Positions 2,107 to 63,763 of a DNA stretch of 64,000 bases are shown here, piece after piece. Each line of letters begins with the position of its first letter. The stretch's first letter is position 1. The notes under the pieces were generated by a model. The model searched no databases. It worked only from the letters and a program-made list of their open reading frames with translations, and was not told where the DNA came from. The position numbers were made by a program, and so were the translations under genes. The DNA comes from an uncultured Flavobacteriales bacterium (GTDB taxonomy: Bacteria; Bacteroidota; Bacteroidia; Flavobacteriales_D; CAJJDF01): contig CAJJDF010000036.1 in the NCBI GenBank assembly GCA_905182785.1, positions 1 through 64,000 of the forward strand, written 5' to 3'.

Positions 2107-3558
2107 ATGAACGAAACAATAAAAACAATTGTAATTGCTTTTCTAGGAGGAGCAATGGCATTAGGAGGATATTCTTTACTTCCCCAAGAAAAAAAAATTA
2201 TTAGTGTAGAGAAAGAGCCGGCAATCACATTTGCACAACCTGTGAGTATTGTAGCTGATAGACAAGAAAATACGTTAGATTTTAAATTGGCAGCCAATAA
2301 TTCGCTTAATAGTGTGGTTCATATTAATACAGAAAAAAAAATGCGTAAATTAAGTGAAGAAGAAAAATTATTCCAACAGTTTTACGGCAGTGGAAATGCA
2401 AACCGAAGCCAAAGAGGATCGGGGAGTGGAGTAATAATTTCTAAGGATGGATACATTGTGACCAACAATCATGTAGTAGAAAATGCAGACTATATCAAAG
2501 TTATCTTGAATGATAATAGAGAATATAAAGCAACAATAATAGGAACGGATCCATCAACAGATATGGCTGTATTGAAAATTGAAGAGTCGGATTTGAGTCC
2601 AATTGTAATAGGAAACTCAGACGAAGTAGAAGTAGGAGAATGGGTGTTGGCTGTGGGAAATCCTTTCAATTTAACCTCTACAGTTACTGCAGGAATTGTA
2701 TCTGCAAAAGGGAGAAGTATCAATATTATGCAGAATAACAGTGAGAATAATATTTTTCCAATAGAATCTTTTATCCAAACAGATGCAGCTGTAAATCCAG
2801 GAAATAGTGGAGGAGCATTGGTAAATGCAAAAGGAGAATTGATAGGAATAAATACAGCAATTGCCTCGAGAACAGGTTCGTATTCGGGGTATTCATTCGC
2901 AGTTCCGGTAAATATAATGAAGAAGGTAACGACTGATATAATAAAATATGGAATTGTACAAAGAGGATTTATTGGAGTAGGAATTCAAGAAATGAACCAA
3001 GACTTAGCCGATAAACTAGAAATTGGTAATACAGAAGGTGTTTTTGTAAATGGATTGGCAGAAGGTGGAGCAGCCGAAGAAGCTGGAATTAGAAAAGGAG
3101 ATGTAATATTAAAGATTAACTCAGAGTCAATAAAATCAGTTCCTCAATTACAAGAACAAGTGGGAAGATTTAATCCAGGCGATAAAATTAATGTGTTGGT
3201 TGTGAGAAATGGAAATGAAAAATCTATCCCAGTTACACTAAGAAACCATGATGGAAATACAAAAATGGTAGAAAAACCAAAAAATGATAATCTGTTAGGC
3301 TCTTCATTTGTAATTCCTTCAGAAACAGAAATGAAAAGGCTAAGAATAGCTAATGGAGTTAAAATAGAAAAATTAGGAAAGGGAAAGTTGCAAAAGATTG
3401 GAATCAAAAAAGGATTTATTATCACTAGGGTCGACAAACAAAAAGTAAACTCGGTAGAAGGATTAAAAAAGCAACTAAAAAAAGCTGAAAAAGAAGGCGT
3501 TTTGATAGAAGGTATCTATCCAAACGGAATAAAAGCATATTATGGAATAGGAATGTAA
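2107..3558 (+). CDS. htrA: HtrA/DegP-type periplasmic serine protease with two PDZ domains
   Basis: This 483-residue envelope quality-control protease degrades or refolds misfolded periplasmic proteins. An N-terminal hydrophobic helix (about 7-26) serves as signal or anchor. The trypsin-like domain (about 65-280) has the complete triad: His122 in TNNHVV, Asp152 in STDMAVL and Ser234 in PGNSGGAL. Two PDZ domains follow, about 283-380 (well conserved, GVFVNGLAEGGAAEEAGI) and about 395-483 (more diverged). A flexible linker with Gly/Ser (about 93-107) precedes the catalytic core. It stands alone, divergent from terC, and ends at a shared terminator with the cold-shock gene. Expression is probably stress-controlled, but no regulatory site could be named. 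Confidence 0.95.
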   Translation: MNETIKTIVIAFLGGAMALGGYSLLPQEKKIISVEKEPAITFAQPVSIVADRQENTLDFKLAANNSLNSVVHINTEKKMRKLSEEEKLFQQFYGSGNANRSQRGSGSGVIISKDGYIVTNNHVVENADYIKVILNDNREYKATIIGTDPSTDMAVLKIEESDLSPIVIGNSDEVEVGEWVLAVGNPFNLTSTVTAGIVSAKGRSINIMQNNSENNIFPIESFIQTDAAVNPGNSGGALVNAKGELIGINTAIASRTGSYSGYSFAVPVNIMKKVTTDIIKYGIVQRGFIGVGIQEMNQDLADKLEIGNTEGVFVNGLAEGGAAEEAGIRKGDVILKINSESIKSVPQLQEQVGRFNPGDKINVLVVRNGNEKSIPVTLRNHDGNTKMVEKPKNDNLLGSSFVIPSETEMKRLRIANGVKIEKLGKGKLQKIGIKKGFIITRVDKQKVNSVEGLKKQLKKAEKEGVLIEGIYPNGIKAYYGIGM

Positions 3559-3580
3559 TAAGCTTAAAATTAACCAATAA

Positions 3581-3612
3581 AAAAGGTCGCTTGCAATTAC
3601 AAGCGACCTTTT
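3581..3612. terminator. Bidirectional terminator between htrA and the cold-shock gene
   Basis: A 13-base perfect stem (AAAAGGTCGCTTG with its complement) closes a 6-base loop and is flanked by A on one side and T on the other, so it works for both convergent genes. Confidence 0.85.
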
Positions 3613-3633
3613 TTGTATTATACAATTATGTGT

Positions 3634-3828
3634 TTAGCTAACTACTTTTACATTAACTGCGTTCATTCCTCTTTTTCCTTCTGTCAATTCAAATTCTACT
3701 TCGTCATCTTCTTTAATTTCATCAATTAATCCTGATGTGTGCACGAAATGCTCTTCGTTTGAACCTTCTTCCACTATGAAACCAAATCCCTTAGTTTCAT
3801 TAAAAAATTTTACTTTTCCTGTTTTCAT
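3634..3828 (-). CDS. Cold-shock domain protein
   Basis: A 64-residue single cold-shock domain, close to the length of CspA-type proteins. RNP1 is K13-G-F-G-F-I18 and RNP2 is the F28-V-H30 motif, both with the aromatic residues that stack on single-stranded nucleic acid. Such proteins act as RNA chaperones that melt secondary structure. It is a monocistronic gene, convergent with htrA and sharing its terminator. The sequence cannot show whether this copy is cold-induced or constitutive. Confidence 0.95.
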   Translation of the reverse strand: MKTGKVKFFNETKGFGFIVEEGSNEEHFVHTSGLIDEIKEDDEVEFELTEGKRGMNAVNVKVVS

Positions 3829-4892: not shown

Positions 4893-7800
4893 ATGGCTAA
4901 TAAATACCCAACTTATAAATCACTTAATTTACCTAATGTTGCTTCTGAAGTATTAGAAAACTGGAAGGATAAAAATGTTTTTAAAGAAAGTATCAGTTCA
5001 AGAGATGAAAATAAGCCTTATATATTTTTTGAAGGACCTCCATCTGCTAATGGATTACCGGGAATTCATCATGTGATGGGTAGAGCTATCAAAGATATAT
5101 TTTGCAGGTATAAAACATTACAAGGTTTTCAAGTAAATAGAAAAGCAGGTTGGGATACACACGGATTACCAGTAGAATTAGGTGTAGAAAAAGCATTAAA
5201 CATTACCAAAGAAGATATTGGCAAGAAAATTACGATTGAAGAATACAACAAAGCGTGTAAGGAGTCGGTAATGAAATATACAGATGTTTGGAATAAACTA
5301 ACTGAACAAATGGGATATTGGGTAGATATGGAAGATCCTTATGTTACTTATGACAATAAATATATAGAATCTGTTTGGTGGATATTGAATGAGATTTACA
5401 ACAAAGATTTAATGTACAAGGGTTATACTGTACAACCTTATTCACCAGCAGCTGGAACAGGACTGAGTTCGCATGAATTGAATATGCCTGGTTGTTACAA
5501 AGATGTGAAAGACACAACTGTAGTGGCACAATTCAAAGTAAAGGATTGTTGCATAGAAAAAGTAACCAAATTTGTAGACGAAGGAAAACAAGCTCACGGA
5601 GATTTATTCTTTTTGGCTTGGACAACCACTCCTTGGACTTTGCCTTCTAATACTGCTTTGGCAGTAGGTAAAAATATTGATTATGTGATTGTTAAATCAT
5701 TTAATCAATATACTTTTGAACCAATAACAGTTGTTTTGGCTGAGAATTTATTAGGAAAACATTTTAGTGCTAAGAATTCAGAATTATTAATTTCTGATTA
5801 TAATGCGGGAGATAAAGCAATTCCTTATGAAGTTATTGGAAAACTTAAAGGAACTGACCTAGAAGGAAGAAAGTACGAGCAATTAATGCCTTTGGCTTTG
5901 CCGCATGAAGATGCAGACAAAGCATTTCAAATTATTATAGGAGATTTTGTAACCACATCAGATGGAACAGGAATAGTTCATATCGCACCTACTTTTGGGC
6001 AAGATGATGCTAAAGTTGCCAAAGATGCTGGAATTCCTCCCATGTTGGTTATGAATGACGAAGGAAAAGCAATTCCTTTGGTTGATTTACAAGGAAGATT
6101 CTTACCGCAATTAGGTAAATATGGCGGTAAATATGTTAAAAATGAATATTATAACGAAGGAGAAGCTCCAGAGAAATCTTTGGATGTAGAAATTGCTATT
6201 GAACTGAAGGAAGAAAACAGAGCTTTTAAAGTAGAAAAATACGAACACTCGTATCCACATTGCTGGAGAACTGACAAGCCAGTATTGTATTACCCTTTAG
6301 ATTCTTGGTTTATAAAGTCTACTCATGCAAAACAAAGAATGCAAGAGTTAAACGAAACGATAAACTGGAAACCAGAATCAACTGGTACAGGAAGATTTGG
6401 CGAATGGCTTAAGAATTTAAATGACTGGAATTTATCCCGTTCAAGGTATTGGGGGATTCCAATACCAATCTGGACAAGTGAAGATAAAAAAGAACAAATT
6501 TGTATTTCGTCTGTAGAGCAATTGAAAGTAGAATGTATTAAATCTATTGAGGCTGGTTTTATGACTGAAAACCCTTTCGATTCATTCGAAATAGGAGACA
6601 TGAGCCAAGAAAACTACGATACGTTTGATTTGCACAAGAATTTTGTGGATTCAGTTATTTTAGTTTCTCCTTCAGGACAACCAATGACTCGTGAAGCAGA
6701 TTTGATTGACGTTTGGTTTGATTCAGGATCTATGCCTTATGCACAATGGCATTATCCATTTGAGAATAAAGAAGAAGTAGAAAACAAATTAAGAAAAGCA
6801 GATTTTATTGCCGAAGGAGTAGACCAAACACGAGGTTGGTTCTTTACTTTACATGCAATTTCAACTATGCTTTTTGATGATGTTGCTTATAAAAATGTAA
6901 TCTCAAACGGATTGGTATTAGATAAAAACGGACATAAAATGTCGAAGAGGTTAGGGAATGGGGTAGACCCGTTTGAAACTTTGGATAAATATGGTCCAGA
7001 TGCTACAAGATGGTACATGATAACTAATGCACAACCTTGGGATAACCTGAAATTTGATACCGAAGGAATTATTGAAACTCAAAGAAAATTTTTTGGTACA
7101 CTTTATAATACTTATTCATTCTTTGCTTTGTATGCAAACATTGATGGATTTAGCTATCAAGAAGCAGAAGTAGAAAACAGACCAGAGATTGACCAATGGA
7201 TTTTGTCGAAGCTAAATACTTTGATAAGTGAGGTTCATACTGCTTACGAATCTTACGAACCAACCAAAGTTGGTAGATTAATTCAAAGCTTTACATTAGA
7301 TCAATTAAGCAACTGGTATGTAAGATTATGCAGAAGAAGATTCTGGAAAGGAGAATATGCAGAAGATAAGGTTTCGGCTTACCAGACTTTGTATACTTGT
7401 TTAGAAACAATTTCGGTTTTGATGTCCCCAATTTCTCCATTTTTTGCAGATAGGTTGTATTTAGATTTAAATAAAGCTTCAGGAAAAAGCGAATTAAATT
7501 CTGTTCATTTGGCTAAATTCCCTACTTCTAAAGAGTTGCTAATTAATGTTGATTTGGAAGAAAAAATGGAAATAGCACAGCAAGTATCTTCTATGGTTTT
7601 GAGTTTGAGACAAACGAATAAATTAAAAGTAAGACAGCCGCTACAAAGAATTATGGTTCCTATCTTGGACTCAAAGTTTGAGTCGCAAATAATGGAAATA
7701 AAAGACATTATTCTTTCAGAAGTAAATGTGAAAGATTTGGAGCTATTGATAGATACAACAGGAGTCTTGGTTAAAAAAGTAAAGCCAAACTTCAAAGTAA

Positions 7801-8704: not shown

Positions 8705-9325
8705 TTGAAAAAAGTAGCTTTAATTACTTTTCTGATAATATTACTGGATCAAGTAATAAAAATCTACGTAAAATCTAATATGACTATAGGTCAACATGGA
8801 TTTGCTTTTTGGATTTTGGACACTGAATTTGCAGAAAATCCAGGAATGGCTTTTGGAACAACTTTACCAGGTGCTTATGGTAAAATAACGCTTAGTTTGT
8901 TACGAATTGTTGCAATTACAGCTATAATTATTTACATAAAAAAATTACTAACAAAAAAAGCACCTTGGGGATTGCTAATAGCTGTTTCTTGTGTTTTGGC
9001 AGGGGCAATAGGCAATATTTTGGATGGAGCATTTTATGGATTAATTTTTGGAGAAAGTACTTATTGGAAGGTAGCTGAGTTTATGCCAGAGGCAGGAGGA
9101 TACGAATCTTTTATGATGGGCCATGTGGTAGACATGATAAAATTTGATATCACTTTACCGGAATGGTTTCCATTTTGGGGAGGGAAACATGCTTTTCCCT
9201 TTATTTTTAATATTGCTGATGCATCCATAACAATTGGAGTTTCTATTATTCTTATTTGGCATAGAAAACATTTCAGAACTGAAGATTCAAAAGAAGTAAT
9301 TCTTCCTATTTATGAAGAAGAATAA
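8705..9325 (+). CDS. lspA: Lipoprotein signal peptidase (signal peptidase II)
   Basis: This inner-membrane aspartyl protease removes signal peptides from prolipoproteins. It has four hydrophobic helices and the catalytic aspartates Asp143 (GHVVDMIKFD) and Asp172 (FNIADASI); the GNILDG motif at 103-108 is also kept. At 206 residues it is longer than the roughly 160-170 usual in proteobacteria because of an insertion between GNILDG and GHVVD (about 112-138), a feature of Bacteroidota enzymes. Translation appears to begin at TTG, as no ATG retains the first membrane helix. It is coupled to the dksA-like gene 6 bases upstream. Lipoprotein substrates are encoded in this window near 43.2, 48.5 and 63.5 kb. 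Confidence 0.95.
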   Translation: MKKVALITFLIILLDQVIKIYVKSNMTIGQHGFAFWILDTEFAENPGMAFGTTLPGAYGKITLSLLRIVAITAIIIYIKKLLTKKAPWGLLIAVSCVLAGAIGNILDGAFYGLIFGESTYWKVAEFMPEAGGYESFMMGHVVDMIKFDITLPEWFPFWGGKHAFPFIFNIADASITIGVSIILIWHRKHFRTEDSKEVILPIYEEE

Positions 9326-47629: not shown

Positions 47630-48169
47630 CTATTTGCTGTAATTAGAGCTGTATTTTTTTGCTTGAATTATAGCAATGAGATCTTTTTCAAGAGATTCTA
47701 CAGGGGTTTCTATAATTCTATTTACTTCTATGCCATTTTGGTATAGAATGAAAGTAGGGACATGATGAATATTCATTCCTTTTTCTAGATTTTTAGGAGA
47801 TTTTTTATTTTTATCCAAACCTATGGTTTCAATATTGGTTACATTCAAGAAACTCATAATGCTATAAAATCTAGGAACTTCTCTTCGGCTATCGCTACAC
47901 CATGTACCTAAAAATATTTTTACAGAAAGAGCTTCTATTCTTTCAGGATTATTTTCGAAATCTGCCAAAGTTTCAACATCTACCAAATAGCTACCAACTT
48001 CTTTGTTATACCAATTGGCATGTTCACTTTGCTGTATTTGTTGCTGAGTGATTATTCCAATCAAATCATTTGAAAAATTAGATTGGTGTTTCGTAACTGT
48101 GAAACAACTCGTTATTGCCAAAAATAAAACAGAACTACTCAAAAAAACTTTCATTGATACTTTTAACAT
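47630..48169 (-). CDS. Thioredoxin-like lipoprotein-type protein
   Basis: The 179-residue protein has a signal sequence with a lipobox-like LAITSCF (Cys22), so it is likely a lipoprotein. The thioredoxin-like domain (about 65-175) has the active-site context TWCSDSRREVPRFY, where the second cysteine is replaced by Ser-Arg: the motif is C-S-D-S instead of CxxC. It is therefore probably not a normal dithiol oxidoreductase. VPTFILYQNGIEVNRI is the cis-proline region. It overlaps the preceding lipoprotein gene by 35 bases. Confidence 0.75.
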   Translation of the reverse strand: MLKVSMKVFLSSSVLFLAITSCFTVTKHQSNFSNDLIGIITQQQIQQSEHANWYNKEVGSYLVDVETLADFENNPERIEALSVKIFLGTWCSDSRREVPRFYSIMSFLNVTNIETIGLDKNKKSPKNLEKGMNIHHVPTFILYQNGIEVNRIIETPVESLEKDLIAIIQAKKYSSNYSK

Positions 48170-48518
48170 AAGGTTTTTTTGAAATTTCTATTAATATTTT
48201 TTTATAATCTTTATTTCCAGTTTCACCAATACACAAAATCTCGTCTTTACCACAACCAATTATTCCTTTAGATGATTTGTAGATAGCAATAGTTTCGTCT
48301 ATTGCCTTTATTTCATTCAGATTTGCTTTATTGTTTGGAATACAGAATTCATAAGCTAGAGAATTTCCTCTATTTTTTATCAGCCCTTTTTTATCTAATT
48401 TAGAAAAAGAAAAATTCATTTTTTCTTCGGCATTTTTTTTAGATTTTGACTTAAATATAGAACAACTCACAAAAAGTGAAATGAGGATTAAGGCAAAGGT
48501 TAATTTAATTATTTTCAT
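48135..48518 (-). CDS. Small lipoprotein
   Basis: The 127-residue protein has a signal sequence with lipobox FVSC (Cys19), then a basic linker. The rest shows no recognised domain; it holds several Cys (about 59, 87 and 94), including GCGKDEILCIGETG. The gene overlaps the downstream thioredoxin-like gene by 35 bases in another frame, so both are translated from one mRNA. Function unknown. Confidence 0.65.
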   Translation of the reverse strand: MKIIKLTFALILISLFVSCSIFKSKSKKNAEEKMNFSFSKLDKKGLIKNRGNSLAYEFCIPNNKANLNEIKAIDETIAIYKSSKGIIGCGKDEILCIGETGNKDYKKILIEISKKPYVKSINESFFE

Positions 48519-61015: not shown

Positions 61016-61558
61016 ATGTTAAGAACAATTTTTAAAAAGAAGGTAAATGAAGATAAACTTGCAAACGTGCTTATTAATTCACTTTTGCATGCAATGGAAG
61101 TTGGCTTCAAGGATATTTCTGAGTTAATAAATAATGACAGAGATTTTGTCATTCAACCCAATATTAAAGAATCAGATTACGACAGATTTTTGTTAATTCT
61201 CTTTGTTGGGAATCTTAAAATAATGGAAAGTAGACTTAATGGCGACCAACCAGATAGGTTAAAAGAATTATTGATAGATAAATTTTCTAATCTTTATGAT
61301 TTGAAAGTAGTAGAAACAAAACGCCATATTAAAGAATACGCGACTTACATGGGAAGGATTAATTATCCTTCCAAAAATGTATTGTATGCCATGTCAAAAG
61401 CAGTTTTTCATAAGTACAATTTAGCCTCTTATCAGGAAGAATATTTTAGAGATTTAAATTCTCCAAACCCTAAGTTCCTAAAACGATTGAATAAAATTGT
61501 AGAGAATTTTATTTGGGATTGGGATTACTTTTTATCTAAGTACAATTTTGTGAGTTAA
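61016..61558 (+). CDS. Unknown protein
   Basis: The 180-residue soluble protein has no recognised domain. It appears mostly helical, with a Lys-rich N terminus and a C terminus rich in Trp and Phe (VENFIWDWDYFLSKYNF). It has its own promoter box and no operon partner. The middle segment FLLILFVGNLKIMESRLNGDQPDRLKELLIDKF could be an amphipathic helix pair. No function is proposed. Confidence 0.65.
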   Translation: MLRTIFKKKVNEDKLANVLINSLLHAMEVGFKDISELINNDRDFVIQPNIKESDYDRFLLILFVGNLKIMESRLNGDQPDRLKELLIDKFSNLYDLKVVETKRHIKEYATYMGRINYPSKNVLYAMSKAVFHKYNLASYQEEYFRDLNSPNPKFLKRLNKIVENFIWDWDYFLSKYNFVS

Positions 61559-61660: not shown

Positions 61661-62851
61661 TTACAGCTCTTTAGCTAATTTTTTTCCCATACTCATGCAT
61701 CCTTGTAATAAGTAACCGCCAGTGGGAGCATCCCAGTCTAGCATTTCTCCTATTACATAATGATTGGGTAATTCTTTCAACTCAAAATTATCGGTTATAG
61801 CATCCAAAGGAATTCCTCCTACTGTTGAGATGGCTTTGTCTATTTCTTCCAATTCTAAAACTTTTATTGGTAAGTTTTTTATGTGTTTGGCTAAGAAATG
61901 AGAATCCATAAACTCCTCTTTGTCACAACTTCTCTTTATCAAATCAAACATAGGTTTGGATAACTTCAGTTGCCATATCAAATGCTCACTCCAGGAGTTC
62001 TTTTTCTTAGAACTGTGCATCTTTCTTAGTAAAGACTCTATAGATGTAGTTGGTTTTAAATCTATAAATATTTTAGCATCTCCAAATTCATCTAATTCTT
62101 TTCTTATTGCTGGGCTCAAAGCATACACAGCACTTCCTTCTAGTCCTTTTTTTGTGATGATTACATCTCCTTTTTTGGATAAATCACCACAAGAAATTGA
62201 AATTCCTTTCAGTGGAAGGCCTTCATTTTGATTAGCAAATTTCTCTTTCCATTTCACTTCCACGCCACAATTGGAGGGAGAAAACGGAATGGTTTTAATT
62301 CCTTTTTCTTCAAAGTGGGAAAGCCAAGAACCATCAGATCCAGTAATTTTCCAACTTGCACCTCCCAGTGCAAAGACTACTTTATCGGCTTTAATGATTG
62401 TTTCTCCTTCTGGCGTATCAAATTTCAACCCTTCTTCGGCAAATCCTTGCCAAGTATGGTTGTATTTAATAACAACCTTGTTTGCAGTCAATTTATCTTC
62501 AAATGCTTTTAAAACCTGAATAGGTTTAATTGGTTTTACAGGAAAAATACGCTTGCTACTTCCCGCGTAAGTTTCTATTCCTTCCTTTTTTAACCAATCA
62601 ATAAAATCTTGGTTTGTAAATTCATCCAAACTATTAAAAATAGGAGCAGAGGCAATGTATTTGGATTTCATTTCTTTTATTTCACTGGCGTGAGTTAAGT
62701 TAAATCCTCCTTTTCCTGCTACCAAAAACTTACGTCCCAAACCTTTGTTGCGTTCATAAATGGTTACATCATATTTAGATGTATCTAACTCACAAGCAAA
62801 TATTAAAGCTGCCGAACCTCCACCAATTATTGCAATACTTTGTTTTCCCAT
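61661..62851 (-). CDS. HI0933/BaiN-type flavoprotein (NAD(P)/FAD-dependent oxidoreductase)
   Basis: The 396-residue protein has the N-terminal dinucleotide-binding motif IIGGGSAALIFACEL, the family-typical KFLVAGKGGFNLTHAS, and a C-terminal FAD segment TGGYLLQGCMSMGKKLA. It belongs to the HI0933-like flavoproteins (BaiN/RdsA clade). Activity is unknown; the clade includes enzymes acting on unsaturated steroid or other substrates and a ribosome-assembly linked member. Its ATG overlaps the last base of the upstream deformylase stop codon, showing translational coupling. Confidence 0.88.
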   Translation of the reverse strand: MGKQSIAIIGGGSAALIFACELDTSKYDVTIYERNKGLGRKFLVAGKGGFNLTHASEIKEMKSKYIASAPIFNSLDEFTNQDFIDWLKKEGIETYAGSSKRIFPVKPIKPIQVLKAFEDKLTANKVVIKYNHTWQGFAEEGLKFDTPEGETIIKADKVVFALGGASWKITGSDGSWLSHFEEKGIKTIPFSPSNCGVEVKWKEKFANQNEGLPLKGISISCGDLSKKGDVIITKKGLEGSAVYALSPAIRKELDEFGDAKIFIDLKPTTSIESLLRKMHSSKKKNSWSEHLIWQLKLSKPMFDLIKRSCDKEEFMDSHFLAKHIKNLPIKVLELEEIDKAISTVGGIPLDAITDNFELKELPNHYVIGEMLDWDAPTGGYLLQGCMSMGKKLAKEL

Positions 62852-63516
62852 TACTTTTGTTTTTCTTTTCTCAATCGTTCTTCTGCTTCCTCAATCTCAA
62901 TATCCAGATGATCGGTAAATAAAATTCCGTTCAAATGATCTATTTCATGCTGAAAAATGACAGCTGTAAATGCCTCAATCATTTCTATTTCGTGTGTTCC
63001 ATCTAGTTTTTCGTATTCCAATAAAATCGCATAAGCTCTATTCTTGGTTGTGTCCATTTTATCTGGAATAGAAAGACACCCTTCTAAACAAAACTGAGTC
63101 TTTTTAGAATATTGTTTTATTGTAGGATTAATATAAGTTTCGAAAGGAAAACCCTCTTTGTCATACCTTTGCACTACAATCATGTTTTTAAGAATCCCTA
63201 CTTGTGGTGCCGCAATTCCTACTCCAGCATGGGCAGGATCTTGTACTGTAGAAAGTAACCTTTGCGACAATAGTTTTGTCGTCTCTAAGTCTTTATTCAG
63301 ATTAATGCGATTACTTTTCGTTCGCAATAAAATAGAATCTTGCTTATTGGTAATTAAAAAAATACGCATTGGATCATCTGATTTCCCAGTATTGATTAAC
63401 TCCTTTTGTGAATTTGTATAGTTATTATACTCCCAACTGATGTCATTTGCTTTTTTCTGAGTTACACAAGAAAAAACAAGCAGGAGGGAAGTGCAAGAAA
63501 TTAAGAAAAGTCTCAT
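62851..63516 (-). CDS. Peptide deformylase with lipoprotein signal peptide
   Basis: The 221-residue protein has all three deformylase motifs: GVGIAAPQ (98-105), EGCLSIP with Cys147, and HEIDH with His190, Glu191 and His194. A metal-binding active site is thus intact. However, it begins with a hydrophobic signal sequence and lipobox LVFSC (Cys17), followed by a linker (about 20-45), so the enzyme is predicted to be lipidated and exported. Normal Def is cytoplasmic and acts on nascent chains, so its substrate there is unclear. It is coupled to the downstream flavoprotein gene. The housekeeping def gene must lie elsewhere. A second start further in that omits the signal is not apparent. Confidence 0.85.
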   Translation of the reverse strand: MRLFLISCTSLLLVFSCVTQKKANDISWEYNNYTNSQKELINTGKSDDPMRIFLITNKQDSILLRTKSNRINLNKDLETTKLLSQRLLSTVQDPAHAGVGIAAPQVGILKNMIVVQRYDKEGFPFETYINPTIKQYSKKTQFCLEGCLSIPDKMDTTKNRAYAILLEYEKLDGTHEIEMIEAFTAVIFQHEIDHLNGILFTDHLDIEIEEAEERLRKEKQK

Positions 63517-63763
63517 TGTGGTTTTGTTTGATGCGAAGATAAGGAAAAGTTTGTTCTACACCTTATGTGGGAGTAAAAACGGAATTAAAACAACTTTGTT
63601 GAATCCAATTAAAAACAAACGGACTGCACTTTTTCCTGATAAGGAATATTTTAATTTAGGAACAGATAATTCAATTACAATAAACCCTAAAAATAAGATT
63701 ATCAACAGTAGTGTTGCAAATAATTACAACACAGTTACCTTGGGCTGCTAAAACGATGATGAG
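63517..63763. other. Intergenic region upstream of the deformylase
   Basis: No gene is supported; a plus-strand open frame crosses it but overlaps the deformylase gene and its translation resembles nothing. It should hold the deformylase promoter, but no exact TAnnTTTG element was found on the minus strand. Confidence 0.35.

Follow-up and report, generated by a model that had tools for sequence, protein, structure and literature searches.

Comparative evidence for a predicted exported lipoprotein peptide deformylase in Bacteroidota

Introduction

Deformylation is taught as a co-translational step in the cytosol, and peptide deformylase (PDF) is usually a ribosome-associated enzyme. In E. coli, it is the C-terminal region of PDF that binds the ribosome (PMC12690207). 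Outward N-termini of membrane proteins can retain formyl-Met, since the signal recognition particle (SRP) shields them from cytosolic PDF, and the role of formyl groups retained on membrane and periplasmic proteins was left open in the same work (PMC5454389). In the periplasm of Porphyromonas gingivalis, N-blocked peptides are processed by other enzymes (PMC8048996). Here, we analyse a PDF gene on a stretch of 64,000 nucleotides (the window) of contig CAJJDF010000036.1, assembly GCA_905182785.1, from an uncultured Flavobacteriales bacterium. From sequence comparison, we consider it likely that its product is an extracytoplasmic, lipid-anchored PDF, additional to the cytosolic one, which would deformylate formyl-Met N-termini.

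Results and discussion

The gene (62851..63516; like all its features given below, on the minus strand) starts with ATG and encodes a predicted exported lipoprotein PDF of 221 amino acids (aa). The open reading frame (ORF) matches the PF01327 profile with 113.3 bits against a curated cut-off of 22.8, and falls narrowly below the cut-off of the NCBIfam equivalog TIGR00079 (102.6 vs 103.95 bits). Motif I, GVGIAAPQ (residues 98–105; 63202..63225), follows the pattern GxGIAA.Q, which is invariant in 83 homologues, as are motif II, EGCLS (residues 145–149; 63070..63084), with the metal ligand Cys147, and the QHEIDH of motif III, QHEIDHLNG (residues 189–197; 62926..62952), which contributes the metal ligands His190 and His194 and the catalytic Glu191. 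A previous sequence-only reading had described these four residues as intact, which the ORF translation bears out, and the active-site residues of the exported family are 100% conserved across the 83 aligned homologues. The structure model (pLDDT 92.7) matched class I type b PDFs with a target TM of up to 0.92. Profile, Cys/His/His ligands with the Glu-bearing motif and modelled fold all agree: by fold and motifs the protein is a PDF, yet it is not of the ribosome-tied cytosolic type.

The difference begins at the N-terminus, MRLFLISCTSLLLVFSC, where Arg2 is followed by a hydrophobic stretch and by the lipobox LVFSC closing at Cys17, the positive n-region, hydrophobic core and conserved lipobox ending in Cys that are expected of bacterial lipoproteins. 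We assign residues 1–16 to the signal peptide (63469..63516), Cys17 to the predicted lipidation site (63466..63468) and residues 18–49 to a linker (63370..63465), in which the structure model places a short helix at residues 35–42. In the signal region of four genus members, codon position 2 is the least changed (0.55, 0.31 and 0.62 at positions 1, 2 and 3). One lipobox call is weak, because the rule fires on 5 of the 54 ORFs of the window, at least one of them falsely, namely on the FAD-binding fold of a flavoprotein. Among homologues, it is positive in 86 of 86 accessory PDFs found by motif search compared to 0 of 31 canonical Bacteroidota PDFs, and Cys17 is invariant in both alignments made (47/47 and 83/83 rows), whereas the rest of signal and linker varies freely; the signal sequence and lipobox noticed in the sequence-only reading are thus upheld by the family. 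Outside the motif search, a few further loci (e.g. L075, EACLS) still display a lipobox; L182 escaped the rule yet reads LILGC, and the N-terminus of L186 is disrupted. Eighty loci of the homologue set derive from one genome scan and the others were fetched from related genomes; the 80 are the best matches of the scan, which introduces a bias to full-length relatives, and a few loci represent one gene retrieved twice, while the profile searches of the family are independent of this bias.

Surface lipoproteins of Bacteroidota carry a lipoprotein export signal (LES), a K-(D/E)2 or S-D-D-type acidic motif right after the Cys (PMC5080379). Here, the sequence at this position reads CVTQKKA, and in each of the 83 members at most one acidic residue lies at +2 to +6, which makes a membrane anchor facing the periplasm the most likely arrangement. 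The lipoprotein signal peptidase LspA, needed for maturing such a lipoprotein, is encoded in the window (8723..9256, plus strand; PF01252, 101.9 bits), and the genome encodes both LspA and Lgt, as well as Fmt, which is cut by a contig end. Elsewhere in the window, two small predicted lipoproteins with the lipoboxes ITSC and FVSC lie side by side (47630–48518, minus strand).

The signal-bearing start codon is preceded, at a distance of 17 nt, by TATCTTCG (63534..63541), which by its sequence is similar to the Bacteroidota -7 promoter element, TAnnTTTG. TATCTT[TC]G recurs 14–17 nt ahead of this ATG in 4/4 genus members, while the remaining upstream bases differ. The only plausible internal start is Met50 (63367..63369), the first residue of the PDF core. 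If translation began there, the product would be a cytosolic accessory PDF and the upstream codons would be untranslated or their product removed unused, and Met50 indeed aligns with the beginning of canonical PDFs and is Met in 98% of the lipobox-bearing clade. We regard this as highly improbable, since the lipobox Cys is invariant, the upstream helix is conserved and the promoter-like element precedes the upstream ATG. In addition, the residue is replaced in most of the relatives described below in which a type-I signal substitutes for the lipobox (Leu in 17, Phe in 10, Met in 8), so that most of them have no start codon at this position. A translation start after residue 20, which the sequence-only reading had named as speaking against export, is thereby made unlikely.

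In the 73 contigs of the genome, which amount to 2.32 Mb with a listed completeness of 100%, there is exactly one further PDF match, a canonical, signal-free protein of 195 aa adjoining a RuvX-like gene (G000:C16:50218-50718; L001 ORF 1420-2007), so that the second def gene whose presence was to be checked is found. A canonical PDF was likewise matched in 7/7 phylum-sample genomes having the exported form. At its C-terminus, the exported protein has a short tail (62854..62904) and lacks the long basic extension seen in canonical PDFs: 12 aa with net charge 0 in exported PDFs, compared to a median of 35 aa and net +9 in canonical PDFs of the same order.

In a maximum-likelihood tree, the 83 lipobox-bearing PDFs split from 31 canonical PDFs of the same order with branch support 100/100, and when PDFs of plasmids and phages serve as outgroups in a second tree, the lipobox and type-I-signal forms fall together in one group (97/95). 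Applied to a sample of 297 phylum genomes, the family profile scored 160 to 325 bits in seven cases and below 117 bits in all others. Family f17, taken for Flavobacteriaceae because loci named Flavobacteriaceae share sequences with f17 loci, has the exported PDF in 30 of 201 genomes, and f16, another family of the same class and possibly Weeksellaceae, has it in 59 of 120. Named members include Leeuwenhoekiella, Reichenbachiella, Tamlana, Algibacter, Saprospiraceae, Cyclobacteriaceae and Ignavibacteria; a match in a metagenome-assembled genome of Neomarinimicrobiota (L055) clusters with Bacteroidota and may be due to a binning error or transfer. Searches for plasmid or phage spread gave only matches of less than 60% identity, of which those read were ordinary PDFs, and a Sinorhizobium match apparently covering residues 2–204 turned out to be an ordinary signal-free PDF.

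L117 (~5575–6030, plus strand) and L119 (~3318–3731, minus strand) belong to another, highly divergent set of PDF-like lipoproteins (lipobox FQSC or LQCC), which the tree places apart from the main exported clade. Here, HGCL replaces EGCL, HEYRH or HEFKH replaces HExDH, and a long C-terminal extension is present; they are possibly inactive or repurposed exported PDFs.

In f16, all 35 ORFs read bear a type-I signal peptide (ending e.g. in NAQ, FAQ or FSQ) replacing the lipobox; lipobox calls for L202 and L212 in this group were artefacts of the rule. In 21 of the 35 (L125–L129 and L200–L216 except L203), the metal-ligand Cys is furthermore exchanged for Asp (EGDLS) with most other motif residues retained, and these Asp forms constitute one nested group inside the exported clade (98/87, second tree). 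They provide a natural test of the need for a Cys ligand. The retention of export despite the changed sorting signal argues for a real extracytoplasmic role. Taken together, the comparative evidence supports the predicted exported lipoprotein PDF because of the invariant lipobox Cys, the upstream promoter-like element, the separate canonical def, the absent basic tail and the type-I replacement in a sister lineage.

Deviations from canonical PDFs are also found at positions of substrate and inhibitor contact. At column 97 (E. coli numbering), 30/31 canonical PDFs have Arg, whereas the 221-aa PDF has Met and only 37/83 members of its family have Arg; at column 86, the canonical Phe is mostly replaced by Cys or Val in the exported family, and column 125 is Phe in 82/83 members. 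In Vibrio accessory PDFs, R97Y, aided by L125F, reduces susceptibility to actinonin (PMC12690207). Given the altered columns 97 and 125, a lowered inhibitor affinity of the exported PDF is by analogy a fair guess. Met97 and the family-wide Phe125 would also suit a decoy or an inhibitor-tolerant PDF, whose value would lie in binding or surviving natural inhibitors such as actinonin. We consider this explanation very unlikely, since the accessory PDFs act in the cytosol and are tolerant through poor drug binding, which is the opposite of a decoy, and since an exported enzyme is unable to substitute for a blocked cytosolic PDF.

For the lipid-anchored deformylase that we favour, the following pathway can be envisaged. 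Sec would export the protein, Lgt and LspA would lipidate it and cut at Cys17, and it would stay on the membrane, facing the periplasm, with the flexible linker presenting the metal-dependent core. The core would then take the formyl group off formyl-Met N-termini reaching the periplasm, enabling aminopeptidases to process the unblocked termini. Candidate substrates are formyl-Met peptides imported or freed by cell turnover and outward-facing membrane-protein N-termini missed by the ribosomal PDF. An exported deformylase would fit both the SRP-shielded formyl-Met termini and the way in which Bacteroidota such as P. gingivalis deal with N-blocked peptides in the periplasm. We infer deformylase activity in place, the anchoring membrane, the substrate and the benefit for the cell.

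Several points weigh against this proposal. Signals were called by a home-made lipobox rule instead of SignalP, and none of the genes neighbouring the exported PDF indicates a substrate. Nor are released signal peptides obvious substrates, as their N-terminus remains at the cytoplasmic face. The metal-binding Cys of cytosolic PDF is moreover easily modified, as by S-nitrosylation of Cys90 (PMC7683392), a liability outside the cytoplasm; the Asp variants of f16 may be an answer to it. Beyond the single protein, we lean, with somewhat less confidence, towards a dedicated extracytoplasmic deformylation branch in Bacteroidota, consisting of an exported-PDF clade that is mostly lipid-anchored, soluble in one lineage and equipped with an oxidation-proof Asp site in part of the latter, and acting on formyl-Met termini which never meet the ribosomal enzyme.

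Within the window, the stop codon of the PDF gene shares one base (TAATG) with the start codon of a gene for an HI0933/TIGR03862-type flavoprotein (61661..62851, minus strand). Translational coupling of the two, put forward in the sequence-only reading, is plausible from this overlap; a general functional tie was rejected, as the flavoprotein is a neighbour only in the genus of the window. A 180-aa protein without assigned function (61016–61558, plus strand) is conserved beside the PDF locus in the genus. In Flavobacteriaceae and close relatives, to which this placement is confined, mrdA-rodA lies upstream of the exported PDF in 27 named loci, and of 30 Flavobacteriaceae genomes sampled, 22 likewise have rodA upstream, a set that may overlap with the former. 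The PDF gene stands straight after mrdA and rodA, usually within ~30 bp, in L061, L066, L069, L071, L074, L078–L081, L084 and L085, and further in L087–L089, L091, L095, L097–L103, L106 and L109–L111. At such loci, genes that we take from sequence recognition to be gldC- and gldB-like often come next in the opposite direction. Outside Flavobacteriaceae-type loci, no conserved gene partner was found among the loci compared.

This position behind genes of cell-wall elongation, seen in about 50 Flavobacteriaceae loci if the possibly overlapping sets are added, leads to the question whether the protein is exported while its PDF core serves in the envelope as a hydrolase of some other N-formyl or amide substrate, not of formyl-Met peptides. 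The departure of the substrate-contact columns 97 and 86 from canonical PDFs would agree with that. Nevertheless, none of the three catalytic motifs is disrupted or variable, the hydrophobicity of the pocket is retained and the rodA neighbour is restricted to one family, and we therefore judge a different substrate to be unlikely.

The searchable literature yielded no paper that names a deformylase as secreted, periplasmic, exported or a lipoprotein, and the text of a 2025 survey of accessory PDFs mentions neither lipoproteins nor Bacteroidota. The novelty of an exported PDF is thus probable rather than proven, because subscription journals lie outside the literature coverage. If deformylation outside the cytoplasm holds true, formyl-Met termini would constitute a genuine pool of substrate there. 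This would affect the reading of PDF counts per genome and the behaviour of PDF inhibitors in Bacteroidota, and would bear on the control of formyl-peptide signals released by these bacteria.

Conclusions

With the class I type b PDFs of Acinetobacter baumannii (6jf3–6jf8) and Thermotoga maritima (1lme), the exported PDF has fold, metal ligands, catalytic Glu and the three motifs in common (target TM 0.82–0.92, ~30% identity). It adds a signal peptide, a lipobox and a 30-residue linker, is altered at columns 86 and 97 and has no basic C-terminal tail. The canonical ribosome-associated Def, defined by its basic tail and lack of a signal, therefore differs from it at both ends, and the acidic motif of surface-exposed LES lipoproteins is likewise not shared. 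The acylpeptidyl-oligopeptidase and dipeptidyl-peptidases of P. gingivalis are serine exopeptidases of a different fold that perform no deformylation. They parallel the proposed enzyme in the way it would work, by handling N-blocked peptides in the periplasm (PMC8048996). Accessory PDFs, i.e. Vibrio Def2 and the integron and plasmid PDFs, likewise represent an extra def beside the housekeeping def, with altered inhibitor-contact residues and C-terminal region; an export signal is unmentioned for them (PMC12690207), whereas the 221-aa PDF carries a predicted one.
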